A DNA stretch of 64,000 nucleotides, taken from positions 3,072,501 through 3,136,500 of the forward strand of contig NZ_CP087715.1 of the NCBI RefSeq assembly GCF_020991125.1, in the 5' to 3' direction. A program made the translations under genes and the position numbers. This document shows, piece by piece, positions 19,939 through 56,523 of the stretch (within the stretch, counting starts at the first letter, position 1; every line of letters starts with the position of its first letter). The notes beneath the pieces were generated by a model that worked only from the letters and a program-made list of their open reading frames with translations, searched no databases and was not told the origin of the DNA. The stretch is from Microbulbifer celer (GTDB lineage Bacteria > Pseudomonadota > Gammaproteobacteria > Pseudomonadales > Cellvibrionaceae).

Positions 19939-20640
19939 ATGGAATTTGTTCTGGTACCGGGCGCCTGGGCGGGCGATTGGATATGGAGTGAGGTTTCTGA
20001 GAATCTAGAAAGGACAGGTTACAAAACACATCTACTTACTCTTTCCGGCCTTGAAGAAAACTCACAGGGATCAACTGATCTCAACACTCACGTCGAGGAC
20101 GTTGAATCCTACATCAGGATGCACGACCTCAAAGATGTAGCGCTTGTCGGTCACAGTTACTCTGGAATTGTTGTAGGCCAGGTGGCTAGCCGGGGGAAGG
20201 TATCTGTTAGCCATACGATTTTTATCGAGGCGTTTCTTCCTGTCTCTGGTCAGTCACTGCTAGAGGTATCTGGCCTCCCAATCGAGGAGGAGAAAAAAGC
20301 AATAGACAGTAATCAGGGAATGTGGCCAGCACCTACCGCCGAAGAACTGGAATCACAACCACATTTGAACCAGGCTCAAAAAGCTTTGCTTGTATCAAAA
20401 CAAAGGCCGCACCCTGGTAATACTGTTACTGATCGAGCCGAGCTTGAAACACCTCTGAGCGAAATTTCAGCGACTTTTATTGCGCATGAGGGTTGGTTGT
20501 CGTCTTCACGGGAGCACGACCTGGTGGATCAACTGAGACGATCCTCCACGTGGCAGTTCCGTACAATAAACGGCGGACACTGGCCCATGCTGACTATTCC
20601 ACAAGAGCTTGTGGAAAAAATTCTTTCTGGTATCCCTTGA
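19939..20640 (+). CDS. Alpha/beta hydrolase (small esterase type)
   Basis: The 233-residue protein is an alpha/beta hydrolase of the plant-esterase/MenH-like type. It opens with the oxyanion strand MEFVLVPGAWAGDWIW, has the nucleophile elbow GHSYSG (Ser73) and the late catalytic histidine in GGHWPML (about 214). It would hydrolyse a small ester in the cytosol; the substrate is unknown. ATG 19939 follows TCAGGAAAA and matches the usual family start; an upstream in-frame start at 19867 adds 24 unrelated residues. It may be the last, attC-less passenger of the array or a chromosomal gene. Confidence 0.8.
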   Translation: MEFVLVPGAWAGDWIWSEVSENLERTGYKTHLLTLSGLEENSQGSTDLNTHVEDVESYIRMHDLKDVALVGHSYSGIVVGQVASRGKVSVSHTIFIEAFLPVSGQSLLEVSGLPIEEEKKAIDSNQGMWPAPTAEELESQPHLNQAQKALLVSKQRPHPGNTVTDRAELETPLSEISATFIAHEGWLSSSREHDLVDQLRRSSTWQFRTINGGHWPMLTIPQELVEKILSGIP

Positions 20641-23502: not shown

Positions 23503-26500
23503 TTAGAGCGCTGATACTTCTACGGGGATGCCGTTCAGTACCGCATTGCCCGAGAGCGCGTCTACCATACGGTCGTCGGTCAGATCGTTTGAATTGATCC
23601 CCGGATTGGTTTTTGCCACCCGCAGCTCGACGCCTTCCAGGTCGTGCCCCCAGCCGTGGGGCAGGCAGACTACGCCGGGCATCACGGAGTCCGTCACTTC
23701 AATCACCACGTTCAGCTGACCGACCCGGGAAGAGATGCTCGCTTTGCCGCCGTCCCGCAGCTTGTATTTTTCCGCATCTAGGGGGTGCATCAACAGTCCG
23801 CAGCGGTCCCGGCCTTTGACCAGGCGCTTGCTGTTGTGCATCCAGGAGTTGTTGGTGCGCAGATCCCGGCGGCCGATCAGCTTGAGCGGGTTGTGTTGTT
23901 TTAGATCGTGGGCAAACTGCTGCAGGCGCCCCAGGTCGGCAATGAATTCGCCGGGCATGGTGTGGATTTTCTTGTCTGCGGTGAACAGGAAATCCGGCAG
24001 ACAGGGCTGCAGCGGCCCCAGGTCCAGGCCGTGGATGAACGTTTTCAACTTCTCGAGGCTGAGGCCGTCCTCGTGGCGGATCACTTCGTTGCCACGATAC
24101 TCGTCAAAGCCTTTACCGTAGGGGCCATGCTGCAGTGCCATGTCCAGTATCTGTACCGGCGTCATGGTCTGCGGCTTGCTGCTGCCCGTCTTGCTTCCCT
24201 TCTTAATAGTTTCGAGCCGTTCGATCAGTCCATTCATGATATCCCAGTCGGACTTCGCACCGGCTTCATGGGGGAACAGCGGCTCGGCAAACTTGGCAGT
24301 GTTGTGTACCGATAACAGATTGAATACCAGGTCGTACTGCTCGTGTTCCAGCGGGCCGGTGGGCGGCAGGATGATATCCGCGTGGCGGGAGGTTTCGTTG
24401 AGGTAGAAATCCAGCGATACCATAAAATCCAACTCGCTCATGCCCTTCTCCAGCAGGCGGCTGTTGGGAGAGGAAAGGCCGGGATTGCCGGCGATACAGA
24501 TAAAGCCGCGTATCTGCCCTTTGCCGGGGGTGGTCATTTCCTCGGCCATTGCGGAGGCGGGCAGCTCGCGGTTGAACTCGGGCAGGCCGCGCACGCGGCT
24601 CTGATAGGTATCAAAGCTGCCGGCCTGATGTGGTTTGACCGCCGCATCCACCGCCGGCCTGGTGAACATCATGCCGCCGCGCCGGTCGAGGTTTCCGGTG
24701 AGGATATTCAGCACGTTGATCAGGTAGTGGTTGAGTGCCCCGAAGGCCTGTGCGGATACGCCCATACGGCCGTAACAGATGGCCTTGTCTGCGGATGCAT
24801 ACTCTTCGGCGATGCGCTCGATTTCCGCCTGCTCGATGCCGCACAGCTCGGCAATCTCTGCCATGGAGAACAGGTTGAAGGTGTCGAGTAATTCGTTCCA
24901 GTGATCCAGCATGTCCGCCAACCTGCCGGGCCTGTATAGCTCCTTGCGGATAATGTGCTGGATCAGCCCCACCAGGAAAATGGCATCGGTGGCCGGGCGG
25001 ATAAAGTGATGTTCCTGGGCGTAGCGGGCGGTTTCATTTTTGCGCGGGTCAATCAATACCAGCTTGCCGCCGCGGGCATGGATCCCTTCCAGGCGCTTGA
25101 GGATATCCCCCGCGGACATCAGGCTGCCATTGGACGCCGCCGGGTTTGCGCCCAGCATCAACATATAGTCGGTGTGGTCCACATCGGGAATGGTGAACAC
25201 CTGGCCGTGCCCGAACATCAGGTAGGAACACAGCTGGTGTGGCATCTGGTCCAGAGACGCGGCGGTAAAGATATTGCGGGTGTTGAGGACTTTTTTCAGT
25301 TTGTTGGTGGTGAGTAGCAGGCCCAGGTTGTGGGAGGTGGGATTGCCCCAGTAGGCCGCCAGGGCGTCCTCGCCGTACTGCGCCTGCACCCGGGCGAGGC
25401 CCCGGGCGGCATAGTCCAGCGCCTCGTCCCATTCCACTTCCAGCCACTGGCCATCCACTTTGCGCAGAGGCTTTTTCAGTCGGTCCGGATCGTTGTGCAA
25501 GTCCTGCAGGGAATAACCTTTTGGGCAGATATGTCCCCAGCTGTGCGGGTCCTTCTCATCACCGGAGATGGCGATGATCTCGCGCCCACGGTACTGGATT
25601 TCCACACCACACATGGCCTCGCACAGGGTACAGCTGCGGTAGTGGGTTTTGACCGGCAGCCTGGCTTGGGCCTCGGACTCGGCGATGGCCGCGGCGCGGG
25701 CCTCCCGGATCACCTGCAGCATGCGCTCGATGGAGGTTTCTTTACAGCGGGGACGCCCCTGCCTGGCACCCTGTGACTGCTCGTGTTGATCCAGCAGTTG
25801 CCAGTCTGAATAACGGATGGCTTCCACCTGCTTGCGCGCAAAAAGTTGCTCCACATCGCCATCAATGGACTCCGGGGATGGAGGCAGATCGGCCAGCATC
25901 CGGGTAACGGTATCTGCGGCGCACTGCTTGTTGCTGCCGATCACGCCGCTGGCGCCGCGCTTGATCCAGCCCGCTACATAGGCCTGCTTTCCGTCTCCTT
26001 CAATGCGGGAACCTTCAATGCAGGCATCCTCAATCCGGGCATCTTTGTTACTGATTACACCGCGTTGCTGGTCAAACGGCAGTCCGTCAATTGGCATCCC
26101 CTGATAGCCGGTGGCATTGATCACCAGGCCCACGTCCAGCGCGGATCTATCCGGTGTGGCAGTTGCGCGCACGCGGCCATCGTCACCGCTCTGCAAACAG
26201 TTGCGCACAGTGTGGAGTTTCTTGGTACCGCCCTCCTCTTCAATGGATTCCGGGCTGGTCAAAAATAGAAAGCGGATGCGTTTCGTGTCTGCGCTGTTGC
26301 TGAGCGGCCGCTCCGCCACCTTGCGCAGCAGTGCCAGGTTCTGACGGGCTTCACTGAATTCCGGCTTCGCCATTTCCGCTTCAGACACAGGATCCAGTTC
26401 CAGGTCCTGCGGGTTGATGATCAGGTCCAGGCCTTCGAGGGCGATCAGCTGTTCCAGTTCTTTGGGGGTAAACGCAGCCTGCAACACACCGCGCCGGGCC

Positions 26501-27363
26501 AGCAGGCAGACCTCCTTGATGTTGCTATCGCGCAGCGCCAACAGTGCGGGATCGGCGATGTCGGTTTGGGCCAGCTCGGTGTGGGGCAATACCAGCATAC
26601 GGGCGATATCCAGCGCCACATTGCCAATGCCGATCACCGCCGCGCGCTCGGCGGTGAAATCCGGGGAGAGGGATTGATTGTCCGGGTGGCCATTGTACCA
26701 ACCGACGAATTCCGACGAGCCGAAGATGTTGCCGAGATCTGCACCGGGAATGGACAGCGGGCGGCTTTGCGAACCGCCGGTGGCATACACCACGCCGTGA
26801 TACAGCGTGCTCAGTTCTGCCACTGAGATATCCCGGCCGATGGCCACATTGCCAAAAAAGCGTACCTGCGGATTTTCCGCGATCCGCTCGAAACTGGCGC
26901 TGATGGATTTGATGCGGGGATGATCCGGGGCGACACCGTAGCGCACCAGCCCAAAGGGCGTTGGCAGACGCTCGAAGATATCCACCTGCGCCGCGGGCAT
27001 GTTTTTCAGAATCGCCTCGGCGGTATAGAAACCGGAGGGGCCGGCACCCACCACGGCAAAGCGGGCACTGAGGGCGGACTGGGCGCTGGTCGCAGCGGCC
27101 TGGAACACGCTTTCGCGGATGGGCGGCAGCACCCTGGCCCGCTCCGCATTCAGCGCAATATAGTGCCGCTGATCTTCCGGTACCGACGATTGCGGGTGAA
27201 TGGCGCGCTCGGGGCATTCGGTCAGGCACGCATTGCAGTCGATGCAGGTGTCCGGGTCGATATACAGCATCGCGTCCCCGGCGCGGAACGCGTCTACCGG
27301 GCACACATCCACACAGTTGGTGTGTTTGTGGTTGATACAGGCTTCGGTGACCACATAGGCCAT
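23503..27363 (-). CDS. Fusion: 7Fe ferredoxin + ferredoxin-NADP reductase + molybdopterin oxidoreductase
   Basis: The 1286-residue cytosolic protein joins three redox modules in one intact frame. Residues 1-56 are an FdxA-like 7Fe ferredoxin (Cys 9, 17, 21, 40, 43, 46, 50). Residues about 100-530 are an FprA/adrenodoxin reductase-type FAD enzyme with GAGPSG (106-111) and VIGIGNVALDIAR for NADP. From about 570 on is a bis-MGD molybdopterin oxidoreductase with CTLCEAMC...CPKG binding a 4Fe-4S cluster, GNPTSHNLG, and a C-terminal dinucleotide-binding domain. Electrons from NADPH could pass to the Mo site or the reverse. The substrate is unknown. Start ATG 27363 has GAGGGA 9 nt upstream. A GST gene follows and an AraC regulator is divergent. 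Confidence 0.88.
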   Translation of the reverse strand: MAYVVTEACINHKHTNCVDVCPVDAFRAGDAMLYIDPDTCIDCNACLTECPERAIHPQSSVPEDQRHYIALNAERARVLPPIRESVFQAAATSAQSALSARFAVVGAGPSGFYTAEAILKNMPAAQVDIFERLPTPFGLVRYGVAPDHPRIKSISASFERIAENPQVRFFGNVAIGRDISVAELSTLYHGVVYATGGSQSRPLSIPGADLGNIFGSSEFVGWYNGHPDNQSLSPDFTAERAAVIGIGNVALDIARMLVLPHTELAQTDIADPALLALRDSNIKEVCLLARRGVLQAAFTPKELEQLIALEGLDLIINPQDLELDPVSEAEMAKPEFSEARQNLALLRKVAERPLSNSADTKRIRFLFLTSPESIEEEGGTKKLHTVRNCLQSGDDGRVRATATPDRSALDVGLVINATGYQGMPIDGLPFDQQRGVISNKDARIEDACIEGSRIEGDGKQAYVAGWIKRGASGVIGSNKQCAADTVTRMLADLPPSPESIDGDVEQLFARKQVEAIRYSDWQLLDQHEQSQGARQGRPRCKETSIERMLQVIREARAAAIAESEAQARLPVKTHYRSCTLCEAMCGVEIQYRGREIIAISGDEKDPHSWGHICPKGYSLQDLHNDPDRLKKPLRKVDGQWLEVEWDEALDYAARGLARVQAQYGEDALAAYWGNPTSHNLGLLLTTNKLKKVLNTRNIFTAASLDQMPHQLCSYLMFGHGQVFTIPDVDHTDYMLMLGANPAASNGSLMSAGDILKRLEGIHARGGKLVLIDPRKNETARYAQEHHFIRPATDAIFLVGLIQHIIRKELYRPGRLADMLDHWNELLDTFNLFSMAEIAELCGIEQAEIERIAEEYASADKAICYGRMGVSAQAFGALNHYLINVLNILTGNLDRRGGMMFTRPAVDAAVKPHQAGSFDTYQSRVRGLPEFNRELPASAMAEEMTTPGKGQIRGFICIAGNPGLSSPNSRLLEKGMSELDFMVSLDFYLNETSRHADIILPPTGPLEHEQYDLVFNLLSVHNTAKFAEPLFPHEAGAKSDWDIMNGLIERLETIKKGSKTGSSKPQTMTPVQILDMALQHGPYGKGFDEYRGNEVIRHEDGLSLEKLKTFIHGLDLGPLQPCLPDFLFTADKKIHTMPGEFIADLGRLQQFAHDLKQHNPLKLIGRRDLRTNNSWMHNSKRLVKGRDRCGLLMHPLDAEKYKLRDGGKASISSRVGQLNVVIEVTDSVMPGVVCLPHGWGHDLEGVELRVAKTNPGINSNDLTDDRMVDALSGNAVLNGIPVEVSAL

Positions 27364-27516
27364 GGGGTTGGCTCCCTCAAACTCATCGAGCTTGTTGTTA
27401 TTCTGGTGCTGATTCTGGTGCGTCGAATGACGGGAATAGTAGGTAAGCGGCCGGGGAAAGTATTGACGCTTTGGCCTGCATTGACATTTTGTGCCAGATC
27501 GCAAACACTCGGTTGC
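27364..27516. promoter_or_regulatory. Divergent promoter region of the oxidoreductase fusion and AraC gene
   Basis: The 153-bp gap holds a TTGACA hexamer at 27481-27486 on the plus strand and a TTGACG at about 27459, plausible -35 elements. No clear palindrome was found. Confidence 0.4.
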
Positions 27517-28542
27517 ATGTCGGAATCTGCCACCATCCCCGCCACCATACCGGCCAGCTTTATTGCCGTGTTGCAGCGCTACGTAGAACTGCGCGGCATC
27601 CGCGCGCCGGCCTATGGGGAAAAGCTCGCGCAGTACCGCGCGCGCAGCAAGATGGAAAACCGGGAGTTCGATGCCCTGCTGCACGACCTGTATGCGCTGG
27701 ATCCCGAGCCGGCCTTTGGGATAAAAATCGGCAAGCTGGTTGAGCCGAAAGACTTCGGCCTGGTGGGATACCTGTTGACCGCCTGCAGCACCCTGGGCCA
27801 GGCACTGACCCGTTACGGGCACTACCAGACACTGATACTGTCCACCCTGAGCACCTGGGTGGAAGTGGGCGACGACGTGATAAGCCACCGCTGGAATCTG
27901 CACGATGTGGAAACACCCATCTCCTGCGAATTCGGCGTATCCATTTTTATCACCCTGGTTCAGAGCCTGATCGGAAAACCGGTGCCACCGATTCACGTCG
28001 GGCTGCCGTTTGCCACCCCGGAACAGCCGCAGATTTATCGGGACCTACTGCAGTGCCCGGTCACCTTCAATTCTGAGTGCCTGATGGTGGATGTGCCGGC
28101 AAAAATTATGTGGATGACCATCACCAGCCGTGATCCGTACATGCGCAAGATTTTCGACCGCCAAGCGCAGGCGATGTTGAAGTCCGAAGGGGAAAATCGA
28201 TCCGACAGCTTTGAAGAGTTTTTCGAGGCGCTACAGCAGCAGGTTCTGATGGCGATGAAGGATGGCGACACCTCTGCCCGATCGGTGTCCCGGCAGATGG
28301 GTATCTCACTACGCAGTTTTTACCGGCTACTGGCCAACGAGGGGTACAGCTATCGTAGTATCGTGGCCGGATTGCGCCAGCGTCTGGCAAAAAAGTATTT
28401 ACAGGACCCGAGTCTGTCTTATGCGGATGTGGCTATGTTGCTGGGTTATTCCGAACAGAGTGCCTTTACCCGCGCGTTCAGGGACTGGATGGGGATCACA
28501 CCTGGAGATTACCGTAAGCAGAAAGGGATTGTACTCAGCTGA
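27517..28542 (+). CDS. AraC-family regulator with arabinose-binding-like N-domain
   Basis: The 341-residue protein has the long N-terminal domain typical of OruR/ArgR-like AraC regulators (PF12625 type; FGLVGYLLTACSTLGQALTRY) and a C-terminal double helix-turn-helix (SARSVSRQMGISLRSFYRLL, then LSYADVAMLLGYSEQSAFTRAFRDWMG). Divergent placement 153 bp from the redox fusion suggests it controls that gene and the GST in response to their substrate. A cytosolic DNA-binding protein; ligand unknown. ATG 27517 matches the family start. Confidence 0.9.
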   Translation: MSESATIPATIPASFIAVLQRYVELRGIRAPAYGEKLAQYRARSKMENREFDALLHDLYALDPEPAFGIKIGKLVEPKDFGLVGYLLTACSTLGQALTRYGHYQTLILSTLSTWVEVGDDVISHRWNLHDVETPISCEFGVSIFITLVQSLIGKPVPPIHVGLPFATPEQPQIYRDLLQCPVTFNSECLMVDVPAKIMWMTITSRDPYMRKIFDRQAQAMLKSEGENRSDSFEEFFEALQQQVLMAMKDGDTSARSVSRQMGISLRSFYRLLANEGYSYRSIVAGLRQRLAKKYLQDPSLSYADVAMLLGYSEQSAFTRAFRDWMGITPGDYRKQKGIVLS

Positions 28543-43341: not shown

Positions 43342-44763
43342 TCAGACGACGCCCCCACTCCAATGGCTTTCCGGCAAACTGTTCACCCCCAGGTAACGGG
43401 CGATATCGCCAAATAACTGGTGTGTACCGTAAATCCGCTGGCCGTTGTTAACCCCGTCACCGCAGTTGATGATACGACCCATCTGTAGCGCACCGCCGGC
43501 ACCACCGGCGAGGGTGACGGCACCAGCTGCACCGCCGTGTTTGGAGCCGTCGCCCACTTCGCTGAACATCACTACCAATGTGTCATCCAGCAGTCCGCTA
43601 TCGTCCAGTCTCTGCAGGGTGTAGGCGAGCAGGGAGTGGTACCAGCGGACCTGGGCGGTATGCGGTACATCCCCCGGGCGGTGCGAGGCGCTGTGACTGG
43701 CGAATTCGTTGTACCAGCGGGTAATACCGCTTACCGGGTCGCCATCACTGGTGCTCTGAATACCCTGGCTGATGGCCTCCTGGGCCATCTGCCAACATTC
43801 ATCGTAGGCATAGTTCACCAGATTGCCGTTCTCGTCGCCTTTGGACAGTTGCAGGGTCGCGACTTTGTGTAGACCGCAGGTGAAGGCACCCACAATATTG
43901 TCTACCTGCGCCCGCGCCAGGTGCGGGAACATCTGCCATTCTGTCGGCGTGAGCTGGCTGGTAGACGCGTAGTAGGGATCACTCATCACATTGGTATTGA
44001 AAGTGCACTGCCCCACCTGGTTACTGGCGAGATCCCGCAATCGTTTGAGTGCGTTTTCATGCAGGGTCAGTTTGTCTCTGCGGGCGGCATCCAGGGTCGC
44101 ATTGGCCAGGCTGTCAAAATCATTCAATACCGCCTCGTAATAGGCCTGCTTCTCACCGTTGCCGTCGCCACTGCCTCCGCCTTCAATACCTACCGCAAGT
44201 TTCTGTGCGGCATCGGCGGGGTCGTTGTTAGGAATCGGTCGCTCATTACTTGCGTAGCCACGGGGTTTGGAGATCATGATGTCCGAGCGGCTGCCGGTAC
44301 GTACCCCCAGATTCAACACGCCCTCATTGCCCAGCTGCTCGGCTATCAAATGGTCGATACTGGCGCTCTCGCGGCTGATCTGATTGTTGCCAGTGAGGAT
44401 GCCGCGCATATCGTTGTAGTGCGCGCCGGCACCGTCACCAATATCCAGGGTGAGGTTCTGCAGTACGATCATGCGATTGTGCCAGGACGCCAGCGGGCCG
44501 AGCCCAAAGCTCAGTGCCTGGCTGCCACCAATGGTCCCCGGCCCCTGTTGCGGCAACCAGTTATAGGGCACTACTCCGTTGGGGTAGTACAGAAACAGTA
44601 CCCGCTGGGCCCTGTCAGCCTGTGCCAGCACTTTCTGGCCGAGCATGTTGCCCGCCAGTGGCAACAGCACTCCGGCCTGCGCCATGCGTAGCAGGAACTT
44701 CCTGCGCGACTGGCTGGTGGATTCCTTGACGGTGGGAAGGCGGAATTGATTCAACAGTTTCAT
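43342..44763 (-). CDS. Tat-exported DUF1552 protein
   Basis: The 473-residue protein has a twin-arginine signal (SRRKFLLRMAQAGVLLPLAG) and a DUF1552 body resembling a sulfatase/phosphatase-like fold (VLFLYYPNGVVPYNWLPQ, GGAGAHYNDMRGILTG, HSLLAYTLQRLDDSGLLDDTLVVMFSEVGDG). DUF1552 proteins accompany DUF1592/DUF1588 proteins in planctomycetes, myxobacteria and some marine gammaproteobacteria; their activity is unknown. A Tat signal suggests it folds or binds a cofactor before export. It lies 17 bp after the giant haem protein and surely forms one operon with it. Confidence 0.9.
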   Translation of the reverse strand: MKLLNQFRLPTVKESTSQSRRKFLLRMAQAGVLLPLAGNMLGQKVLAQADRAQRVLFLYYPNGVVPYNWLPQQGPGTIGGSQALSFGLGPLASWHNRMIVLQNLTLDIGDGAGAHYNDMRGILTGNNQISRESASIDHLIAEQLGNEGVLNLGVRTGSRSDIMISKPRGYASNERPIPNNDPADAAQKLAVGIEGGGSGDGNGEKQAYYEAVLNDFDSLANATLDAARRDKLTLHENALKRLRDLASNQVGQCTFNTNVMSDPYYASTSQLTPTEWQMFPHLARAQVDNIVGAFTCGLHKVATLQLSKGDENGNLVNYAYDECWQMAQEAISQGIQSTSDGDPVSGITRWYNEFASHSASHRPGDVPHTAQVRWYHSLLAYTLQRLDDSGLLDDTLVVMFSEVGDGSKHGGAAGAVTLAGGAGGALQMGRIINCGDGVNNGQRIYGTHQLFGDIARYLGVNSLPESHWSGGVV

Positions 44764-44780
44764 TATTATGCTCTCCTGTT

Positions 44781-47700
44781 TCAGCGACGCAGGGTGAATG
44801 TGTCGGACAAGACCAGGGTGCGCAACATGGATTGCATGCCGCCACCATTGCGCAGGTCTTCGCTTACCGCATGGATGATCAGGTCGTCACTGGCGCTCTC
44901 TTCCCGACCGACAACGTACCGATAAAACTGCCGCGCGAAACAGGCTTCTCCCTGATCACTGCCGGCAATGAGGTTTGCCAGTTCCGGAACCGAGTAGAAG
45001 TCGTAACTGGAGCTGGTGGGGTCGAGTACCGTGGCCGGGGTATACAGGCTTTTGATACTGCCGCTGTCATCAATCTCCCGCTCTTCACCTGTGCCGATGG
45101 TTTCGATGGTGCGATACAGCGCATCGCTGCCGAAGCCTTCAAAACCAAACCCGACGCCGTCGATAAACTGATGACAGGCCGCACAGGCGGGGTCGGAAGT
45201 ATGCCGGGCCGTCGCTTCGCGGTTGCTGTCGGTCTCTTCAAACACCACATTGAAGTCGGCCGCAGCCGGCGGCGGAAACTCCTGACACATCAGTACTTCG
45301 CGCACGTAGACACCGCGCTTGATCGGCGCCGGGTTGACGGTGCTGGTGCGCGAGGCAAGGAAACTGCCGTGCCCCAGCAGGCCGCTGCCGCTGCGCGGGT
45401 CGCCCACCGGAAAATTGCGCATCATCCAGCCACTACCACCACTGTTGTCGAGCCCGTAATGGACAGCCAGCACGTCGTTGGCCCAGGTGGAGTTGGCACT
45501 GAGTAGCGTGCTGTAAGCCGCATCGCTGCGGATATGCTCCAGCACAAAGCCCACCGTCTCTTCCTTGAATGCCGCAATCAATTCCGGGCTGTCGATGGCC
45601 GGGAACGGATACTGATTGTTGATCAGCCATCCGTCGATAAACCGGCGCAGACCGCGCTCTGCACGGGGATCTGCCAGCAATCGGTCAACCTGTGCCGCCA
45701 CGTCAAAGTTTTCTTCGGTGGCCGCGAGCAGCAGGGTATCGTCCGGTGTGGTGCCCCAGAAGGTGTAGGACAACAGCGTGGCAATCTCGTAATTGGTCAG
45801 ACGATACAGGCCCGTTTCACCATCCAGTACACCCAGCTCCGAGCGATACATAAAGTGGGGTGACATCAGCATGGCCTGCAGCAACAGGCGGCCATCGTCT
45901 TCGCTGCTGTAGAGTGGTGTGTAATTGCCAATTTCCGCAATGCTCAACGGGCGACGGAAAAGACGGAAGCCAAGGGTATCCACCACGCATTCGATTTCTG
46001 CACAGTCATTCACAAGATTCAGGAAACCGGACTGACTGATGGCCAGCTCCGCTACCTGTTCGGCCACCAGTTGATAACCAAGGGTGCGATCGTTGCCCGC
46101 CGTGAGGTAGGAAGCGGTATCGAAATTGCGATAGCGGCCATCCGCCGGTACCGGGCTCATCAGCGAAACATCAAAGTCGGTGGCGAAAATATCCCGCACA
46201 CTGTTGAGATATTCATCCCGCGTCAGCAGGCGCAGGTTGCGCCGGTCCAGGTTGCTACCATCGCAGGTGCTGTCATTACAGGTGCCGGTATTCCAGGCTT
46301 CATCCACAATCAGCCGCGCGGTTTCGTACGCACAGGCGCCGGGCTGGTCGCCGACACAACTGGCGGCCGCATCCATGGGCATAAAGTCCTCGATGTATTG
46401 GGTCAGGTCGGCGAGCTGCCAGTTACTGCCGGAGCCGGCCAACGCCTGGGCAACCGCACCCTGCCCCTGGTCGCCGTGACAGCTGGCACACTGGGCGGCG
46501 TAAAAATTCTGGCCCGCTTCGTATTCGTTGCTTGTGCTGGGGAACAGGGCCACCAGCGACAGATCGTGCTGCGGTATCAACAACTGTACCTGGGATTGGG
46601 ACGGATCACCGACAATATACGGGGCTGCATCGCCGCTCCAGTTGGCAAATTCGGTGCCGAGCGGCGGCGTATCTGCGGTGACGGTAATCACGCTGCCGAT
46701 GGGATAGTCGCGGCCACCATCGGTGGTGGTACCACCGATCACAGACACCCGCGAAGTCTCGCCGCCAATCGGACCTTCCGTTTCCCAGGGCTCCCAGGTG
46801 CCGCCGACAAGACTCGAGGATTGCGTGATATCGCGATGGTCTCCGGTCTGTTGGCCGTCTCCGCTGTTGAACAGCAGGTTGATCTGTCCCTGGTGGAGCT
46901 CTTCCTCTTCCACGGTATGGCGCCACCAGCCTTCCCGATCCGGGCCCGACATCAACCGCCCCGGCCATTCGGTAACAGCCTGATCCTGGCCATCCACCGT
47001 CACCCACAAATGCACGAATACCTGGTCCCAGTTATCGGGATTATCGAAGCGCACGGAAATCCCTGAACCAGCTTCAGTGAGACTGACGGCCGCCGAAAAC
47101 TCGCCGACCTCCGCCCGCACTGAGACATCACCGCTACCGGTACGGCTTACGAGACCATTCTGATCTACAGTGGCAGGGCCACTCTCCACAACCCAGGTCA
47201 CCTGTCCGAAAAGATTCTGCCGCGTACCATCTGCGCGCAAACCATAGGCTGCCAACTGACGACTGCTGTCGAGCGGCAAACCCTGTGGCGCGATTTCGAT
47301 GTCGGTAATACCGGTATCCACAGTGGTGACAGAAATTGCCAGGGTTTCGCCAAACCCATTTTGCTGTACCGTCACCGAGGCACTGCCGGGGTCGCCGGCG
47401 CGCAGGGTAAATTGCCCGGTGCCCACCGCCTCGACGGCAATGACTGCACTGTCGCTGGAGGCGACACTGGGCGTACCGGAAACCGCGGTGGTAAAGCCGT
47501 TATCAAATTCGGCCTGTACGGCAATCGTCAGCGTATCGCCGCTGTTGAGACGATCACCGCCTGCCTGCAATGCAATACCGGTTTGTTGTGCGTCGACCGC
47601 CTCAATCCAATCGCGGAAAAGCGCCTCCGCCACCGGATTGGTGTAACGGGTGCCTTTCGGCATACGGTTGTTGTCGGTGGTCTGGTAGATATAGATCAGA

Positions 47701-50441
47701 CTGTTGGCGTGATCGAACGGTCGCAAGCGGGCGGTGCCGGCAACGGTCTCGACACCCAGCAGGCGCGTCTCTTCCAGCGGCGTGTCGTAGCGTAGGTCCA
47801 TAAAACCACTGGCGTGGCAGTGCGAGCAGTTGGTATCGAGGTAGGATCGCGCACGCGTATTCAGATCGGCGGTTTCGTCATTGGTGGCGACAAACTGCCC
47901 GTGATTTTGTGCAGCGCCGATATCCCCCGCAAACAACTGGATGTTATTGAACACATCCAGCTGGTTGGCAATCGACTGTGGAGATTCACCGTACTGGAAA
48001 TCCCGGTTCAGCTGCCGGGTATGTACCGCCAGGGGCTCGCGACTACCACTGCCGATATGGCAGGACCCGCAATCAGCCGCTGACTGCACGGCGCGCTCGC
48101 GGTTTTCGATCCCCCCGTCCATTACCGTCATGGTTTCCGTCACCAGATCGGCATCTTCACCGGTGCTGTTCCAATAGTAGTTAGCCGCCTGCCATTTGCC
48201 GCTGTCCTGCCGGAAAAGGACCGATGTGGTAAACGGTTTGTTCAGGTTTTCCAAAGTGGCAATACTCTGATGTTTTACCAGCACGGTGCCCACCGGCAGA
48301 TCCCAATTATCGATATCGTCAAAATTGATCTGTGTGTCATTCGGCAACGCGATAAAGTGCCGCACACCGGCGCCGTCAAACCACCCTTCGGTGTTGAGGC
48401 TATATTCCAGAACACCGCTGACGGGCGTCAGGTTTTCCAGGTCGGAGAAGATCCCGGTCTGCGACAGTTTTGCAGGAATAACTGCGGTAGCCGTATCCTC
48501 ATCAACGATCTTATAGATTGTGGACTGCCCGCCGTACTCCACACCGTAGGTGGAAACCAGCAGTGTCTCGCCACTCAAGTCGGTGCCAAAAGACGCAATG
48601 TTTTCCGGGAAAGTATCACTGATCAGCGACTTGGCTTCGCCATCCACAATGGACCAGATGCGCTTGGTCACGTAGTCGCCGAAAACGAAATTACCGGTAA
48701 GCCCGGGCAGTGCACCGCCCCGATAGACCAGGCCACCAATAATGGAAAAACCGGTGGGATGCGCATAGCCATCCCGGGGGGGCTCGAAATCGGTACTGCA
48801 GTTTTTACCCGGGTCTCCCCCCAGGTCGCCGCGGTTGGTGGTGCCTTCGCATACCGGCCAGCCGTAGTTTTTTCCTTTCTCGATCAGGTTGACCTCTTCG
48901 AATCCCGCCTGCCCCACTTCGGTTTCCCACAGGGTGTAGGGCGCCTCGGTATCAAAGCTCCAGCGCCACGGGTTGCGGTGGCCGTAAGACCAGATTTCCT
49001 CACGAAAACCGGGCACACCCACAAACGGATTGTCCGCGGGAATTTCGTAGTACTTTCCATCGATCGGCTGCGCCAGCGGCTTGATACGGATGAAAGTACC
49101 AAGCAGGTTGTCGGTTTCCTGCGCGCCGTTATTGGTGCGCGGATCTTCCGGATAAGACATGGTGGCACTGTGACCGTAAGCGCCGTCGCCGATACTCAGG
49201 TACAGGTAGTTGTCTTCCGGGTGGAACTGCATCATGCCGCCCTTGTGGTCCGGGCCTCGCTGTGGAACCCGCAACAGTTCCGTTCGCGATCCGGTCACGA
49301 CCCGGGATGGATTATCCGGATCATCAACGGTCCAGCGCTCAAGAATGGCATCGCCATAACTGCCATCCGGTGCGCGTTCGTTATCGTCGGTACCGTGGAT
49401 GTAATAAATATAGATATAACCGTTGCTGGCGAACGCCGGATCGAAGGCCATGCTGAGCAGTCCCTGCTCGTGATAGTTGCGCACTTCATTATTAATATTC
49501 AGCAGCGTCTGCACTTCGCCCGGGGCCACATCCTCGCGATTTGGGAAAGTGAAAATGGAGCCGGTTTTATCCACCACGTACAGCAGGTCGTTCACGCCAT
49601 CCGGTACCACCATCACCGGAGACATAAACAGTCCCTGCAGATTGGGGTAGGCGATTTCAAACCGGTAGCTGCCGCCGGACACGTTGCCGGAGATGGGGAA
49701 GTTCAGCGGTTGCTTCAGCAGCGGGCGGGTGGTTGGGGGCTGATCTTCCTCCGGCTCCTGATCCAGACCACAGGCCTGTGCCGGCTGCCATTGATGGGCA
49801 ATATAGCAGGGCGCGCCCGCGTACAGCAGGTTCTGAGTCTGAGCCGTACCATTGTCATTAAAGATGACATTGAGCGACCCGGGCATGAAACCATCCAGAT
49901 GACCGGAGAAGTCATAGCAATAAAAGCCGTCCCTTTCGGTCATCGACTCGCCGGGCCAATTGGGCAGGTTATTAAAACCGGTGGAGGGATCGGGGTTCCA
50001 GAAATAGATATGTGGATTCGCGTAGTTTTGTGCATTGTCGAAGCACAGAGTGTGACCCGCCCCCACCGGTGGATCGACAATTTCCGTTACCCTTATCTCT
50101 TTGCTCGTATCGTCAAATGCAATCCGATAGCGCCCGTTTTGCATTGAATAATCTCCAGCCGGATAGGCCTCATTCCAGTTCTGGAAACGGCTGATTTTGA
50201 AGCGGGGACTGGGATCATCAAATGTCTGCTCAGTGGCCCAGACACCGGTTTCGGCATCGTAAGCCATGGCGGTGGCTCCCCATTCGTTCGGGGTACCGCG
50301 GAACCAGGCTTCGGACCAGTTTTGTGCCAACACTGGAAATGGCAGCACCAATACCACTGCAAGTACCGGCAACAGAAAATTTCTCAGGCATACGGAATCG
50401 GCAGAGACCTTGTCTCCGACCGCATTGGGGGCAGATATCAT
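44781..50441 (-). CDS. Giant starch-binding/PQQ-dehydrogenase-like/multihaem DUF1592 protein
   Basis: The 1886-residue exported protein (signal FLLPVLAVVLVLPFPVLA) has, in order: an RGTxNxW module like those of the nearby amylase (about 40-115); a CBM26-like domain (HTLCFDNAQNYANPHIYFWN, 125-215); a glucose/sorbosone-dehydrogenase-type propeller (about 245-640, GLLSMAFDPAFASNGYIYIYY); a dihaem region like SO2930-type cytochromes with CGSCH (791) and CSHCH (872); Ig-like domains (about 985-1125); a second CBM26-like domain (ISVRFDNPDNWDQVFVHLW, about 1130-1200); an InlB-like repeat (about 1230-1290); a cytochrome with CASCH (1318); then DUF1587/1595/1592/1588/1585 with CAACH (1754). ATG 50441 follows GGAGCATAGCG. 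Function inferred: starch-bound sugar oxidation with electron transfer. Confidence 0.9.
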   Translation of the reverse strand: MISAPNAVGDKVSADSVCLRNFLLPVLAVVLVLPFPVLAQNWSEAWFRGTPNEWGATAMAYDAETGVWATEQTFDDPSPRFKISRFQNWNEAYPAGDYSMQNGRYRIAFDDTSKEIRVTEIVDPPVGAGHTLCFDNAQNYANPHIYFWNPDPSTGFNNLPNWPGESMTERDGFYCYDFSGHLDGFMPGSLNVIFNDNGTAQTQNLLYAGAPCYIAHQWQPAQACGLDQEPEEDQPPTTRPLLKQPLNFPISGNVSGGSYRFEIAYPNLQGLFMSPVMVVPDGVNDLLYVVDKTGSIFTFPNREDVAPGEVQTLLNINNEVRNYHEQGLLSMAFDPAFASNGYIYIYYIHGTDDNERAPDGSYGDAILERWTVDDPDNPSRVVTGSRTELLRVPQRGPDHKGGMMQFHPEDNYLYLSIGDGAYGHSATMSYPEDPRTNNGAQETDNLLGTFIRIKPLAQPIDGKYYEIPADNPFVGVPGFREEIWSYGHRNPWRWSFDTEAPYTLWETEVGQAGFEEVNLIEKGKNYGWPVCEGTTNRGDLGGDPGKNCSTDFEPPRDGYAHPTGFSIIGGLVYRGGALPGLTGNFVFGDYVTKRIWSIVDGEAKSLISDTFPENIASFGTDLSGETLLVSTYGVEYGGQSTIYKIVDEDTATAVIPAKLSQTGIFSDLENLTPVSGVLEYSLNTEGWFDGAGVRHFIALPNDTQINFDDIDNWDLPVGTVLVKHQSIATLENLNKPFTTSVLFRQDSGKWQAANYYWNSTGEDADLVTETMTVMDGGIENRERAVQSAADCGSCHIGSGSREPLAVHTRQLNRDFQYGESPQSIANQLDVFNNIQLFAGDIGAAQNHGQFVATNDETADLNTRARSYLDTNCSHCHASGFMDLRYDTPLEETRLLGVETVAGTARLRPFDHANSLIYIYQTTDNNRMPKGTRYTNPVAEALFRDWIEAVDAQQTGIALQAGGDRLNSGDTLTIAVQAEFDNGFTTAVSGTPSVASSDSAVIAVEAVGTGQFTLRAGDPGSASVTVQQNGFGETLAISVTTVDTGITDIEIAPQGLPLDSSRQLAAYGLRADGTRQNLFGQVTWVVESGPATVDQNGLVSRTGSGDVSVRAEVGEFSAAVSLTEAGSGISVRFDNPDNWDQVFVHLWVTVDGQDQAVTEWPGRLMSGPDREGWWRHTVEEEELHQGQINLLFNSGDGQQTGDHRDITQSSSLVGGTWEPWETEGPIGGETSRVSVIGGTTTDGGRDYPIGSVITVTADTPPLGTEFANWSGDAAPYIVGDPSQSQVQLLIPQHDLSLVALFPSTSNEYEAGQNFYAAQCASCHGDQGQGAVAQALAGSGSNWQLADLTQYIEDFMPMDAAASCVGDQPGACAYETARLIVDEAWNTGTCNDSTCDGSNLDRRNLRLLTRDEYLNSVRDIFATDFDVSLMSPVPADGRYRNFDTASYLTAGNDRTLGYQLVAEQVAELAISQSGFLNLVNDCAEIECVVDTLGFRLFRRPLSIAEIGNYTPLYSSEDDGRLLLQAMLMSPHFMYRSELGVLDGETGLYRLTNYEIATLLSYTFWGTTPDDTLLLAATEENFDVAAQVDRLLADPRAERGLRRFIDGWLINNQYPFPAIDSPELIAAFKEETVGFVLEHIRSDAAYSTLLSANSTWANDVLAVHYGLDNSGGSGWMMRNFPVGDPRSGSGLLGHGSFLASRTSTVNPAPIKRGVYVREVLMCQEFPPPAAADFNVVFEETDSNREATARHTSDPACAACHQFIDGVGFGFEGFGSDALYRTIETIGTGEEREIDDSGSIKSLYTPATVLDPTSSSYDFYSVPELANLIAGSDQGEACFARQFYRYVVGREESASDDLIIHAVSEDLRNGGGMQSMLRTLVLSDTFTLRR

Positions 50442-50596
50442 CGCTATGCTCCGGTCGTTATTTTTATCCGGACGACTGTCATGTCGGCTCAACATTCAGT
50501 CTTTATTTTGTTATCAACTGAATACAACGCAGCTGTTCATTTTCGTGCGCGAACCGCATAGGCGCAGGTTCAAGTTACCGGGTTCCCAGGGAATTA

Positions 50597-50811: not shown

Positions 50812-52575
50812 CTATCGGGCACTCAACTGCGACGATTGCTCAACACCCAACAGCAGGGTGTCAAATTTGGTGTCGAACGAAAGAGTGCCATCTTCTACCC
50901 GGGCCTCAACGCCAGAATAGTAGTCCTTCACCAGAGCGCCCTCAGCGAAGACACCAGCAGCAGTCAGGGATTTCTCACCTTTCGGCATATCCAGCGCCAC
51001 CATCACCCGGTCATCTTCCAGGGTGCGGGTAAATACATACGGCTTTTCGTTCAGTTGTTTGTGCACACCGGCGCCCACGGCCATATGGGACTGACGAAAC
51101 TGACCCAGTTTTTGCCAGTGCTGGAGGATTTCCTGAGTCTGCGTCTGTTGCAGAGACGCCCAGTCCATAGGGACACGCATGGACGCATCGCCATAAGCCT
51201 GGTCATCAATCATCGGGCGGGCAACTTCATCGCCGTAATAAATCTGCGCAGCACCGGGCGCAAGCATCAGTTTCAAGGCAGCAGTCTTCACCTGCTTGCG
51301 TTCACGGTCGAAAGAGTTCTGGTCGTCATGAGAGCCCAGATAATTCAGCACCGAAACATCTTTCAAGGCGCCCTCATGCAGGGTATTGGAGTACTCGCGG
51401 AAGATACTTTCCATATCCTGGGTAGCGTGTGCAGCGAACCCCATATTGATCAGGCTATCGAAGCCATAGTTGAAGAAGTCCACTTTGCGATCGCCATAGT
51501 CATAGAAACGGCCATCGCTGCTGGCGAAATCATTCACCCCGTAGTGGTAAACCTCTCCCACCATAAAGAAGTCACGATCGTCGAGCTTTTGGCCCTGATT
51601 ACGCGCTTTCCAGTCCGACAACGCGATACTGGCCTCCTTCTTCAGTACCGCCCAGATTTCCGGCTCCACGTGTTTGACCGTGTCTACACGGAAACCGTCC
51701 ACACCGTATTCCCGCACCCAATCGGTCAGCCATTTGACGATGTAGTACTTGGGCGCGCGCGGATAGCCGGTACGCTCGAAAAAGGCATCCAGCTCTGCCA
51801 CTTCCTGCTCAAGGCGACCTTCGCGCTGCCATTTCTCGGTAAGCTGTGGTGGAAGCTCAACCGGCTTTTCACTTTCAGTGAGGATGTCCGGCAGGTTTTC
51901 GGTGAGAGCGCACTCTACATTCTGCTCAAAGCTGCTCCAGTCACACTGGGGATTGGTGCGAACCCAGTCCGACGGCCACAGGGGGTCTTCGCTGGTGACC
52001 GGGCCGGTGTGATTGATGATCACGTCCAGCAGGATACGCACGCCTTTGCTGTGAGCGACCTCCACCAGTTCCGCCAGATCTGATTCGGTACCGAAGTTGG
52101 CATCTACCGCAGTCCAGTCTTTCGGCCAGTAGCCGTGAAACGCGTAGGTTCGCTTGTCCCCTTCATCGTAGCCGTGCACATTCTCGACAATGGGAGACAT
52201 CCAGATGGCATCCACTCCGAGATCGGAGAAGTAGCCCTCTTCCAGCTTCTGGATGACACCGCGCAGGTCTCCCCCCTTGAAACCGCGCAGGTGCGCTGCA
52301 TCATCTTTGCGGCCATAGGAAAGATCGTTGTCCGGGTTGCCGTTATGGAAGCGGTCCGGGAGCATGAAATAGATGGTGGCGTTGTTCCAGAAAGGGTCAC
52401 GGGCGGCATCCTTGACCTCGGTCAATACTGCAGTTTCGCTCGTCTGCGATGATGCAGCGGCATCCGGAGCGGCTACCGGGCGCTCGGATTGATCCACTCG
52501 CGCATCGTCGCCACAGGCCGTTAAGGCCAGGGCGGCTGCAGAAATCCATGCTGTCAGGCCGGCTGTTTTTTTCAT
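50812..52575 (-). CDS. MalS-like GH13 alpha-amylase lipoprotein
   Basis: The 587-residue protein has a lipoprotein signal (lipobox LTAC) and a GH13 barrel whose spacing and sequence resemble periplasmic E. coli MalS: GVDGFRVDTVKHVEPEIW (Asp about 296), FMVGEVYHYG (Glu about 339) and LGSHDD (Asp about 414), with the long KARNQGQKLDDRDFF segment between. It would cut maltodextrins to shorter chains in the periplasm or on the outer membrane. The start at 52575 follows GAGAGAAG; an upstream start at 52599 adds eight unlikely residues. A MalT-like site lies 67-92 bp upstream. Confidence 0.92.
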   Translation of the reverse strand: MKKTAGLTAWISAAALALTACGDDARVDQSERPVAAPDAAASSQTSETAVLTEVKDAARDPFWNNATIYFMLPDRFHNGNPDNDLSYGRKDDAAHLRGFKGGDLRGVIQKLEEGYFSDLGVDAIWMSPIVENVHGYDEGDKRTYAFHGYWPKDWTAVDANFGTESDLAELVEVAHSKGVRILLDVIINHTGPVTSEDPLWPSDWVRTNPQCDWSSFEQNVECALTENLPDILTESEKPVELPPQLTEKWQREGRLEQEVAELDAFFERTGYPRAPKYYIVKWLTDWVREYGVDGFRVDTVKHVEPEIWAVLKKEASIALSDWKARNQGQKLDDRDFFMVGEVYHYGVNDFASSDGRFYDYGDRKVDFFNYGFDSLINMGFAAHATQDMESIFREYSNTLHEGALKDVSVLNYLGSHDDQNSFDRERKQVKTAALKLMLAPGAAQIYYGDEVARPMIDDQAYGDASMRVPMDWASLQQTQTQEILQHWQKLGQFRQSHMAVGAGVHKQLNEKPYVFTRTLEDDRVMVALDMPKGEKSLTAAGVFAEGALVKDYYSGVEARVEDGTLSFDTKFDTLLLGVEQSSQLSAR

Positions 52576-52641
52576 TATCTTCTCTCGGTCGTTATCCAAC
52601 GGTCATCACTGCAGGCTACTTTACCCGGCTGCCACGCACTT

Positions 52642-53739: not shown

Positions 53740-56166
53740 TCAGCCTCCTATATCGACCGAGTCAATTTCCTCATAGAAGACATCGCGCTGATTGTTCAGG
53801 TCCATCTGGTAAAGGACACCGATGTGACCACTCTGCAGCAGCTGTATATCCGGACCAAATGGTATCCCGTCAATTACCGTTTTCGGACCTGAGAAGTTTC
53901 CAGAATCGAGCAAATAACTGTATCGCAATACGCCACTGCTCTCGTAGAAAAATACCGGCTTACCGTCAATTTCCCGCAACCTTGGCATCATATGCAGGTG
54001 CGGGTGCGGACTGATCAGATGCTTTTCATTCCAGTTCTCCAGATCATCCGATTCAGCGATCACCAATTGATTCTTCGAGTAGGAAACAAACCCCAGATAG
54101 TATTTGCCAGTTGAGGCTTGCAGCAGTGTTGAGTCGAAGTCCCAATCAGTACCGCTGGATACCTTTGCCGGCGTACTCCAGCTTTGTAGATCACTACTGG
54201 ATGTCACGTAAACATCGATATTGTAGTCATCATCCTGAGGTGACTCGGCCAGTGAATAACTGACAATATAGGTGCCGTCACTCGCCTCGATCAGCGACTC
54301 CGCATGCAACAGGTTCCAGTCACACTCCGTCTCATCGCAGCCGGCAAAGTTGGTATTTACAGTAAGCGCTGTTTTCAGCCAGTCTTGGCCGTCGTCTGTC
54401 TCGTAGATACAGGCGCCTCCGCTGTCACAGTGACCAAGTATCAGCACCTTTCCAAATCGGTTTTCGATCATCACCGGATTGCCGTAGATATACTCCGGCA
54501 GCGTTGCAAAAGTCTCCCAGGTCTGGCCACTATCTACTGATCGGGTAAGGTAAGTATCGTCCTCTGAGACCAGTGCCACCAACTCACCATTATCGCGCTG
54601 CACAAAGGCCGCATTGTGTGGATAGATCGTACTATTGGTGACGTAATGACCCCGGGGTGTATCCAGTTCATAACTACAGGGCGGCTCTGCGCAGGTAGAC
54701 GTGAAATAAATACTCTGCTCTACCTGGTCCCCATTATATTCTTCCTCACAGACACTGGGGCTTTCAGAGCAGTAGAGGGCCAGCTCGGTACGAAATTCGC
54801 CCGGTTTGGCTGGTGCCCAGTACTCTATCTCCCAAACGTTACCGGCATAGTCGTACTCCGCGTTATACACGCCCTCGACAGGATATTCGGACATGTGGTT
54901 TTCGGGGTTTTCCAGATCATAGGTATAGAACTGTATATGCCAACCGTCTTCGGGGTCTGCCGGGTTGAAATCGGGATCAAAACCTCGTGCGCGCAGGGTG
55001 ATCGTTTCGCCCTGGAAGTAAACCTCACTCTGGCCGACGATATGGATTCGATCTTCAGTATCTGGAACGGTGTCATTGTCGTCGTCGGGATCTGCATTGT
55101 CCCCCAGACCATCACCGTCAAAATCCATGCTCTCCGCATCATCTAGCGGAAAGGCATCCTGGCTGTCGACCACCCCATCGTTGTCATCGTCAGGATCGAC
55201 AACATTATCGAGGCCATCGCCATCGGCGTCACCCGCGACATCAGAATCCAGCGGCGCCGTATCGGCGTTGTCTGGAGTACCATCATTGTCGTCATCTTCA
55301 TCGACAATATTGCCGATGCCATCGCCATCGGTGTCTTCCCACTCATCGGGATCATACGGCAGGTCGTCATCCTCGTCGGCGTAGCCGTCGTTATCGTCGT
55401 CACCATCATGGATGTTATCGATGCCATCCAGGTCGACGTCACCACTGCGCTCCGGGTCGTAGGGAAACTCGTCCCACTCATCCGGAATGCCGTCGTTGTC
55501 GTCATCTGCGTCGGAGTGATTGCCAATGCCATCCTCATCGATATCAATTTTCTCTGAATTTTTCAGCGTCAGGGAAAAATGTTCTCTGGCAGACTCCTCT
55601 TCCACGAGCGCTCCTAACCCGGCGGCGGAGAGAAAGGCTGTGACTTTATGATCCGTAGCGAAGGCAAGCGGATCCTGATCAAAATCGACCAACGTCAGCC
55701 CGGACTTGTCGATAATTTCCGCGGTATCGTCACGCAACATGATGCGTGTTTCGATATCCCCGTCATCGTCCAGGCTCTGCACAATACGCAGAAAGTTCAC
55801 AACTCGACGATCGTTGATATCGCGTGTATCAAACAATGACAGCGGGGTAAGTGCGGGCTTCGCGGCAATGGAAGCAAATGTGAGAGCCCCTAATGAAAAG
55901 GAAACCGTATCCGAGGGCTCATAGGTAAACCGGCCCTCACCATCGGTAACCCCTTGTTGCCCGGACCCCGTACTGTAGCTGAGCCCCGCTATCGGGCTAT
56001 CAAAAAATATACCCGTAAGTAAATCCGGTGACGGTACTGGCGGGTTAGCGACATCACCACTCGAGCCTGAGGAGCCAGAACCAGAACCGCCACCACAGGC
56101 CGCCAGTAGAAGGCTCAACGCGGCCACAGGCCAACCTCTTCCCTGCCGTAAGGAAAATTTATTCAT
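53740..56166 (-). CDS. Lipoprotein with thrombospondin-3 repeats and a sialidase-like propeller
   Basis: The 808-residue protein has a lipoprotein signal (LLLAACGGG), a Gly/Ser linker, a beta-rich N-domain (about 45-180), about seven Asp-rich calcium-binding TSP3 repeats (about 190-370, DxDxDGxxDxxD pattern), and a C-terminal BNR/sialidase-like six-bladed propeller with repeated Ser-x-Asp-x-Gly-x-x-W turns (SVDSGQTWETF, ETDDGQDWLK, SSSDLQSWSTP). It would sit on the outer membrane, probably facing outwards. No catalytic Arg triad of sialidases could be identified. It lies after the TonB receptor on the same strand, separated by a terminator; a role in substrate capture is possible. Confidence 0.8.
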   Translation of the reverse strand: MNKFSLRQGRGWPVAALSLLLAACGGGSGSGSSGSSGDVANPPVPSPDLLTGIFFDSPIAGLSYSTGSGQQGVTDGEGRFTYEPSDTVSFSLGALTFASIAAKPALTPLSLFDTRDINDRRVVNFLRIVQSLDDDGDIETRIMLRDDTAEIIDKSGLTLVDFDQDPLAFATDHKVTAFLSAAGLGALVEEESAREHFSLTLKNSEKIDIDEDGIGNHSDADDDNDGIPDEWDEFPYDPERSGDVDLDGIDNIHDGDDDNDGYADEDDDLPYDPDEWEDTDGDGIGNIVDEDDDNDGTPDNADTAPLDSDVAGDADGDGLDNVVDPDDDNDGVVDSQDAFPLDDAESMDFDGDGLGDNADPDDDNDTVPDTEDRIHIVGQSEVYFQGETITLRARGFDPDFNPADPEDGWHIQFYTYDLENPENHMSEYPVEGVYNAEYDYAGNVWEIEYWAPAKPGEFRTELALYCSESPSVCEEEYNGDQVEQSIYFTSTCAEPPCSYELDTPRGHYVTNSTIYPHNAAFVQRDNGELVALVSEDDTYLTRSVDSGQTWETFATLPEYIYGNPVMIENRFGKVLILGHCDSGGACIYETDDGQDWLKTALTVNTNFAGCDETECDWNLLHAESLIEASDGTYIVSYSLAESPQDDDYNIDVYVTSSSDLQSWSTPAKVSSGTDWDFDSTLLQASTGKYYLGFVSYSKNQLVIAESDDLENWNEKHLISPHPHLHMMPRLREIDGKPVFFYESSGVLRYSYLLDSGNFSGPKTVIDGIPFGPDIQLLQSGHIGVLYQMDLNNQRDVFYEEIDSVDIGG

Positions 56167-56523
56167 TTTATTATCCATCAACTGATCAAGAAGCGGCCCT
56201 ACCCGCGTCATTCCGTGAGAAGTTCAGGGCCGAAGAGCCAATATACTCCCCCGCATATTGCACCGCAATAAACTCAAACCGAACCTGACTTAAGCGGGAT
56301 CAGCCACCTTTTACCTACAGCTGCTGTGGCGCGCAAAAGATACCTGCCCCCCCGGTGATGTCGTACCGGACTAAACATCTCCACTGGCGATAACCAGCTT
56401 CCAGGTCGTCCCATCCATAACCGCTAGAGCTGCGGAATTGGGATGCTGTACGGCATAGCCACGGTGTGCGAAGAGTTGCACATAGTTATCGAAAGCCTGC
56501 CTGAGAATAATTCTGAAGACCAC
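56167..56523. other. Intergenic stretch upstream of the TSP3 lipoprotein gene
   Basis: No convincing gene. A 60-codon frame on the minus strand (56371-56553) reads through the terminator stem and is probably chance. No copy of the MalT-like motif is seen here. Confidence 0.5.

Follow-up and report, generated by a model that had tools for sequence, protein, structure and literature searches.

What does a large exported protein with several haems do in the midst of amylases? The window, that is, the whole stretch of 64,000 nucleotides of DNA from the marine bacterium Microbulbifer celer analysed here, holds a gene in which predicted starch-binding modules are joined to a sugar-dehydrogenase-like propeller and a DUF1592 cassette, followed by a DUF1552 gene; we know of no activity for either DUF1592 or DUF1552. 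The preliminary description proposed that this pair binds starch outside the cytoplasm, oxidises glucose or reducing ends and sends the electrons to the respiratory chain or to a partner oxidase. The construction of the proteins, their relatives and the possible routes of their electrons are considered in turn below.

The DUF1592 protein and its DUF1552 partner

The open reading frame comprises 1904 codons on the minus strand (44781-50495), and a start at Met19, with CGGAG upstream, yields 1886 residues (Table 1). From the N-terminus, the order is X25-like module, CBM26, GSDH, SO2930-type di-haem domain, Ig-like domain, CBM26, X183 and DUF1587/1595/1592/1588/1585. Pfam places CBM26 at residues 151-223 and about 1148-1220 and GSDH at 305-616 (E 2e-40; 1904 numbering), and each of the five DUF domains exceeds its own cut-off. 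The preliminary description of one frame of about 1886 codons with two CBM26 domains, a GSDH-like propeller and the full DUF set is thus borne out, and searches for CBM26, GSDH, cytochrome c and DUF1592 found every domain. Its four CXXCH haem motifs were also recovered, at residues 809, 890, 1336 and 1771 (1904 numbering) or 791, 872, 1318 and 1753 (1886 numbering). Four motifs are far beyond chance: when the protein was shuffled 5000 times, the mean count was 0.0056. The single open frame, the conservation of 31/31 copies and a maximum of one CXXCH in the shuffles led us to reject a frame that is spliced or due to chance. Pfam and NCBIfam scans recognised no hydrolytic domain in the protein, and Pfam gave no match to the YceI-like X158.

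Several modules were assigned by weaker or partial matches. The RGTxNxW motif proposed earlier does mark a separate N-terminal module, with a weak likeness to the X25 module of pullulanases (PF22058): eight of nine such modules match at E 2e-5 to 0.036, all sub-cut-off, and the window's own match (E 0.007) is likewise below the cut-off. The SO2930-type domain (residues 674-966) covers the whole TIGR03806 model at 155 bits, below its 313-bit cut-off. Big_2 (PF02368) matches occur in 9 of 16 starch-type proteins. For a profile of the C-terminal half, the top three PDB matches were 8Q1V, 8Q1W and 7B21; the last is the X183 domain of Cbp2D, and the first two are presumably X183 domains of Teredinibacter. 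The model of the cassette from X183 to DUF1585 reached a mean pLDDT of 83.6, with at least 90 for 346 of 594 residues and a poorly predicted X183 end. Since Foldseek found nothing in the PDB for the DUF1592 cassette model (best E 2.1), a new fold is possible for its core.

The DUF1552 gene starts 17 bp past the stop of the DUF1592 gene and has an AGGAG site, which confirms the spacing given in the preliminary description; the Tat export proposed there is consistent with an RR Tat-like signal judged by eye. With this signal and the Sec-type one of the DUF1592 protein, both products are predicted to be extracytoplasmic. The DUF1552 model, of pLDDT 69.6, shows a tentative resemblance to sulfatases and other alkaline-phosphatase-superfamily enzymes in Foldseek, with 65 PDB matches at E <= 0.001 (best E 4e-6, prob 1.00), prob 0.99-1.00 among the 50 listed and low TM scores of about 0.3-0.4. 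Across 32 aligned partners, H115, H235, H357 and H361 are invariant, with H357 and H361 four residues apart.

Table 1. Features of the starch-type unit in the window and of its sister in the window's genome
Feature	Position	Strand	Basis or remark
Starch-type DUF1592 protein	44781..50441	(-)	1886 aa from Met19; ORF extends to 50495
Sec-type signal peptide region	50322..50441	(-)	by eye; hydrophobic stretch ending ...FPVLA-Q
N-terminal RGTxNxW module, weakly X25-like	50061..50321	(-)	in homologues too; weak PF22058 matches
CBM26 no. 1, predicted starch binding	49827..50045	(-)	PF16738, E 1.4e-20
GSDH beta-propeller, sGDH/HHIP-like	48648..49583	(-)	PF07995 E 2e-40; PDB sGDH E 1e-17; HHIP first with family profile
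SO2930-type di-haem cytochrome domain, haems 1 and 2	47598..48476	(-)	TIGR03806 E 2e-45, model positions 2-313 of 314
CXXCH 1 (CGSCH)	48057..48071	(-)	
CXXCH 2 (CSHCH)	47814..47828	(-)	
Ig-like domain (Big_2, weak)	47097..47270	(-)	PF02368 E 0.048, sub-cut-off
CBM26 no. 2	46836..47054	(-)	E 2.7e-13
InlB-like B-repeat (Flg_new_2)	46539..46739	(-)	PF18998 E 2e-6
X183-type mono-haem cytochrome, haem 3	46359..46526	(-)	profile matches PDB 8Q1V, 8Q1W, 7B21; PF13442
CXXCH 3 (CASCH)	46476..46490	(-)	
DUF1587 (PSD3)	46038..46232	(-)	Pfam
DUF1595 (PSD5)	45837..45986	(-)	Pfam
DUF1592 (PSD4)	45450..45800	(-)	Pfam
DUF1588 (PSCyt3), houses haem 4	45108..45386	(-)	Pfam
CXXCH 4 (CAACH)	45171..45185	(-)	
DUF1585 (PSD2)	44796..44999	(-)	Pfam
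DUF1552 (HXXSHH) partner	43342..44763	(-)	PF07586 E 2e-39; RR-motif signal
GH13 alpha-amylase, upstream of unit	50812..52599	(-)	orthologue upstream in same-genus copies
CBM2-GSDH-CBM2-cytochrome-DUF1592 sister (P0003)	L008:13305-17240		DUF1552 downstream at 12012-13253

Distribution, sister units and known relatives

Around the unit lies a starch locus with a GH31 gene (34205+), GH13 genes (29625-, 32175+, 36705+ and 50812-, the second of cyclomaltodextrinase type), a TonB receptor (56591-), a glucokinase (59634-) and an AraC regulator (61425+). The statement that a DUF1592/DUF1552 unit with two CBM26 domains and four haem motifs lies amid amylases therefore holds. In all 12 other same-genus copies, an orthologue of the GH13 gene at 50812 is found upstream of the unit. 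Beyond the genus, the amylase setting is mostly absent: when homologues of the window's enzymes were counted at E <= 1e-10, 18 other family loci of at most 20 kb each held GH13 homologues in two (both g14, Gilvimarinus) and GH31 homologues in two. The 15 loci L092-L106, some of them short, held none.

A survey of 144 genomes of the family found DUF1592 in 76 and CBM26 in 40. Selection for CBM26 and DUF1592 matches within one frame gave 31 copies, the window included, with genome G024 left out as its CBM26 frames lie on two short contigs; all 31 have four CXXCH motifs, GSDH, CBM26, the DUF1592 cassette and a downstream DUF1552 gene. In a diverse subset of 16 of these copies (alignment A5), CBM26, GSDH, the SO2930 domain and all five PSD/PSCyt domains are present in 16/16. 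Named hosts within the family are Microbulbifer, Gilvimarinus, Marinagarivorans and Cellvibrio. Outside the family, genome contigs were scanned with two peptide patterns, and the best 80 of 117 stretches included loci from Catenovulum (4), Colwellia (3), Arenicella (2) and Pseudoalteromonas fuliginea (1), all ten with four CXXCH motifs and a downstream DUF1552 gene. L092, L093, L095 and L104, apparently the same contigs as L055, L063, L060 and L062, were counted once, and L101 is truncated by the contig end. In Catenovulum sediminis, it is the DUF1552 gene (L098:15699-17023) next to the starch unit that is split over two frames.

In a quick-mode tree of 83 cassettes, midpoint-drawn without an outgroup root and with several long branches, 41/41 starch-type rows fall into one 43-row group (SH-aLRT 96), and most CBM2 types form another large group. 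Because the two remaining rows, L107 (a 5'-cut contig) and L108 (a long branch), lie inside the starch group, the starch label needs three changes on the tree; one origin of the starch type is the simplest reading of these sequences.

A DUF1592 search of the window's genome gave two matches. Like the window unit, its sister P0003 combines a CBM, GSDH, a mono-haem cytochrome and the DUF1592 cassette with a downstream DUF1552 gene; it differs in having CBM2 at both CBM places, two haem motifs, no SO2930 match and a place in a different tree group. Judged by CBM2, the sister unit would be cellulose-addressed. Among 34 non-starch genes (alignment A6), hand-picked from a longer list and biased to long frames, CBM2 occurs in 22, X158 in 12, GSDH in 11 and a GH5 cellulase domain, joined to the cassette, in three. 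X158 and GSDH are together in none of the 34 proteins, and two X158 members nest within the GSDH branch of the cassette tree, as if the two modules replaced each other. The X158 domain, present in 12 of these 34 and in no case together with GSDH, is thus not a constant part of the family. DUF1552, by contrast, adjoins DUF1592 in all 65 genes examined (31 starch-type and 34 non-starch; for 33 of the latter the neighbour was recognised with the window's query and for one with a second query). A limited search of open-licence literature found no paper naming the two domains together. The copy number can be high: genome G055, taken as Marinagarivorans algicola, has 27 DUF1592 and 24 DUF1552 matches, against 1-3 DUF1552 matches in the ten other genomes compared.

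The closest known protein is Cbp2D of Cellvibrio japonicus. Genome G015 is taken as this species because it encodes a stretch of PDB 7B21 (Cbp2D X183) letter for letter together with a Cbp2D of 1122 aa, the published length (PMC12542752). Its gene order is cbp2E-cbp2D-DUF1552, with a DUF1552 gene of 402 aa 50 bp behind cbp2D (L158:9842-11047), a neighbour of which term searches found no mention in the main text of either PMC8981238 or PMC12542752. Cbp2D resembles the window protein in its CBM, its X183 haem and its DUF1587/1595/1592/1588 set with a second haem, and in the DUF1552 gene that follows. It differs in carrying CBM2 instead of CBM26, the YceI-like X158 instead of GSDH and the SO2930 di-haem domain, and two haem motifs instead of four, and in having a separate Cbp2E upstream. 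According to the text of PMC12542752, single deletion of cbp2D or cbp2E causes a growth defect on filter paper, chiefly a long lag, with normal growth on cellodextrin, and total loss of growth was shown in strains carrying four further deletions. Cbp2D thus matters for growth on insoluble cellulose, and its authors suspect a new mode of cellulose cutting beyond LPMO support and propose direct cutting (PMC12542752). To this our analysis adds a fixed genetic partner, as DUF1552 stands beside every DUF1592 gene examined, cbp2D included.

In Cellvibrio japonicus, DUF1592 and DUF1552 each have three matches, every pair adjacent, and one pair (L054) is of the starch type, with four CBM26 domains in its protein. 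The earlier assertion that no starch system of this form had been described is accordingly narrowed: this gene exists in C. japonicus and Cbp2D is a described cellulose relative, although a limited open-licence search on CBM26, cytochrome c and starch and on PSCyt found no parallel starch system. The C. japonicus gene cbp26A is reported to be up on cellulose, mannan, xyloglucan, fungal necromass and starch (PMC12542752, PMC11497827), so its induction would not be starch-specific if it were the starch-type gene. By Pfam, two C. japonicus CBM26 proteins lack a glycosidase domain, namely the L054 starch type and an RHS-repeat protein (L154, scanned over 3793 of 4012 residues). Since there are two candidates and the literature texts searched gave no locus tag for cbp26A, which the text searched of PMC10714805 does not name, its starch induction is not assignable to the starch type. 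The second candidate (L154:1-11379), huge and RHS/teneurin-like, carries CBM26 four times along with a CAP domain and is itself a predicted starch-binding RHS protein.

Two further groups share parts of this construction. TERTU_2913 and TERTU_3803 of Teredinibacter turnerae are, like the window protein, large exported proteins that unite haem domains (X183 and X132) with a PQQ-dehydrogenase-like module (PMC10916295); they differ in their pf08450-X173 and X122 modules, and that text, as far as covered, names no starch module for them. The planctomycete-specific cytochromes of Verrucomicrobia have PSD/PSCyt domains in common with the window protein. Their genes usually stand beside a fixed partner family of no known function, and some carry CBMs (PMC5615132). 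CBM26 is absent from the CBMs of the figure legend there, and the parts of that paper covered describe no GSDH fusion.

Probable role and the routes of electrons

The pair probably represents the starch-directed form within a family of modular, exported redox pairs, each made up of an X183 and DUF1587/1595/1592/1588 protein and a DUF1552 partner. The exported pair would be held on starch by its putative starch-binding CBM26 domains, and the CBMs in general would choose the polysaccharide, with CBM26 in the window and CBM2 in the sister unit and Cbp2D. The front-end module, GSDH/SO2930 here or X158 in Cbp2D-type members, would exchange electrons with X183, from which they may pass to the DUF1588 haem. 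This haem, with the DUF1552 partner, would then perform or support chemistry on the glucan. Our guess is that the reaction is an oxidation or cleavage of alpha-glucan that aids the amylases, for which the GSDH cofactor need not be PQQ. The starch type would offer a system parallel to Cbp2D in which substrates and assays are far easier than with cellulose, and a new handle on possible bacterial redox chemistry on polysaccharides.

A wider proposal, which we put forward tentatively and would not expect to hold, is that DUF1592-DUF1552 pairs constitute an unrecognised, LPMO-independent class of haem-based enzymes attacking polysaccharides. Such enzymes would be built as from a kit, with the CBM picking the polymer, a quinone-handling X158 or GSDH supplying electrons, and the DUF1588 haem and DUF1552 cutting or oxidising the chain. 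If this were true, the window would serve as the starch model and Cbp2D as the cellulose model; if the pair is catalytic, polysaccharide breakdown becomes a role for a DUF set that several phyla possess.

The role of a classic PQQ aldose dehydrogenase, in which GSDH oxidises glucose or the reducing ends of maltodextrins and electrons travel via haems 1-4 to the respiratory chain, is rather unlikely. Searched as a single sequence, the domain matches sGDH best in the PDB, ahead of aldose dehydrogenases from E. coli and archaea. Three sets of positions do not vary among 16 starch types: the His of GPDHKGG, the Arg-Asn of HRNP and the acidic EE. A cytochrome domain follows directly. H399 and R489-N490 (1886 numbering) align to YliI, at positions that we take to be the catalytic His and Arg-Asn of sGDH/YliI. 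However, the Arg-x-Arg of E. coli YliI, which presumably holds the PQQ carboxylates, is missing in 12/12 DUF1592-GSDH domains compared, of starch and cellulose types alike, with QRIRDV of YliI aligned to ENIASF (RIR to NIA). When a family profile of GSDH is used, the best PDB match becomes hedgehog-interacting protein (HHIP), to our knowledge no enzyme. Furthermore, none of the 31 starch-unit genomes has pqqC, against 11/144 family genomes, and none has pqqE over the cut-off, against 2/2 pqqC-positive genomes searched alongside; weak pqqE matches below the cut-off turned up in each of the 33 genomes and in each of the 14 controls. One PQQ-dehydrogenase-like module from a related Teredinibacter protein bound no PQQ, as reported in PMC10916295. 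With Arg-x-Arg missing and neither pqqC nor pqqE over the cut-off, GSDH was dropped as proof of PQQ use. The label 'PQQ-dehydrogenase-like' in the preliminary description is apt for the fold and the conserved His, Arg-Asn and acidic positions and falls short on the other points; scavenged PQQ or another GSDH cofactor is possible.

The propeller family and several active-site positions of the window GSDH are shared by sGDH/YliI and by AA12, and AA12-AA8 is a fungal pyranose dehydrogenase. From sGDH/YliI/AA12-AA8 the window protein is set apart by the absent Arg-x-Arg of YliI, its four c-type haem motifs and its extra DUF1592 cassette. A cytochrome is attached to AA12 as well (PMC8981238).

An electron donor to a secreted starch-attacking LPMO, in the manner of fungal CDH or AA12-AA8, is an unlikely role for the window protein. 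In vitro, the X183 domain of Cbp2D does reduce AA10 LPMOs and help them to act on cellulose (PMC8981238), and AA10 matches occur in 28/31 starch-unit genomes (two weak) compared with 90/144 overall. The two AA10s of the window's genome, however, carry a GbpA-type domain and CBM2, respectively, and no starch CBM; among the matches listed, inspection by eye found no CBM26 inside an LPMO frame. Three near-identical genomes (G064-G066), which amount to one event, kept the starch unit and have no AA10. In C. japonicus, deletion of lpmo10B alone left growth on filter paper wild-type-like but deletion of cbp2D did not (PMC12542752), and the Teredinibacter results are inconsistent with an LPMO-donor role according to their authors (PMC10916295). 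An obligatory AA10 partner was rejected on account of the AA10-less carriers and the lack of a starch-CBM AA10 in the window's own genome, and the partner oxidase suggested earlier finds no support as an LPMO. Finally, a starch-tethered electron outlet or relay, whose haems wire the oxidation of small substrates to an outside acceptor and leave the glucan itself untouched, would suit the multi-haem chain of the window protein, in which no hydrolytic domain was recognised, but is very unlikely, as the fixed DUF1552 gene (65/65) and the CBMs and, in three cases, GH5 domains joined to the cassette point to chemistry on polymers.

The window also contains features apart from the unit. Between the GH13 gene and the TonB receptor, an 823-aa protein (53740-56211) of no clear Pfam family weakly matches a thrombospondin-type MtsC. 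A 1497-aa fusion (23503-27996) unites 4Fe-4S, pyridine-nucleotide oxidoreductase and molybdopterin oxidoreductase domains. The stretch at 8001-20000 has few long ORFs and a G+C content of 0.45-0.47, compared with 0.53-0.60 in most of the remaining sequence, and is possibly acquired DNA.
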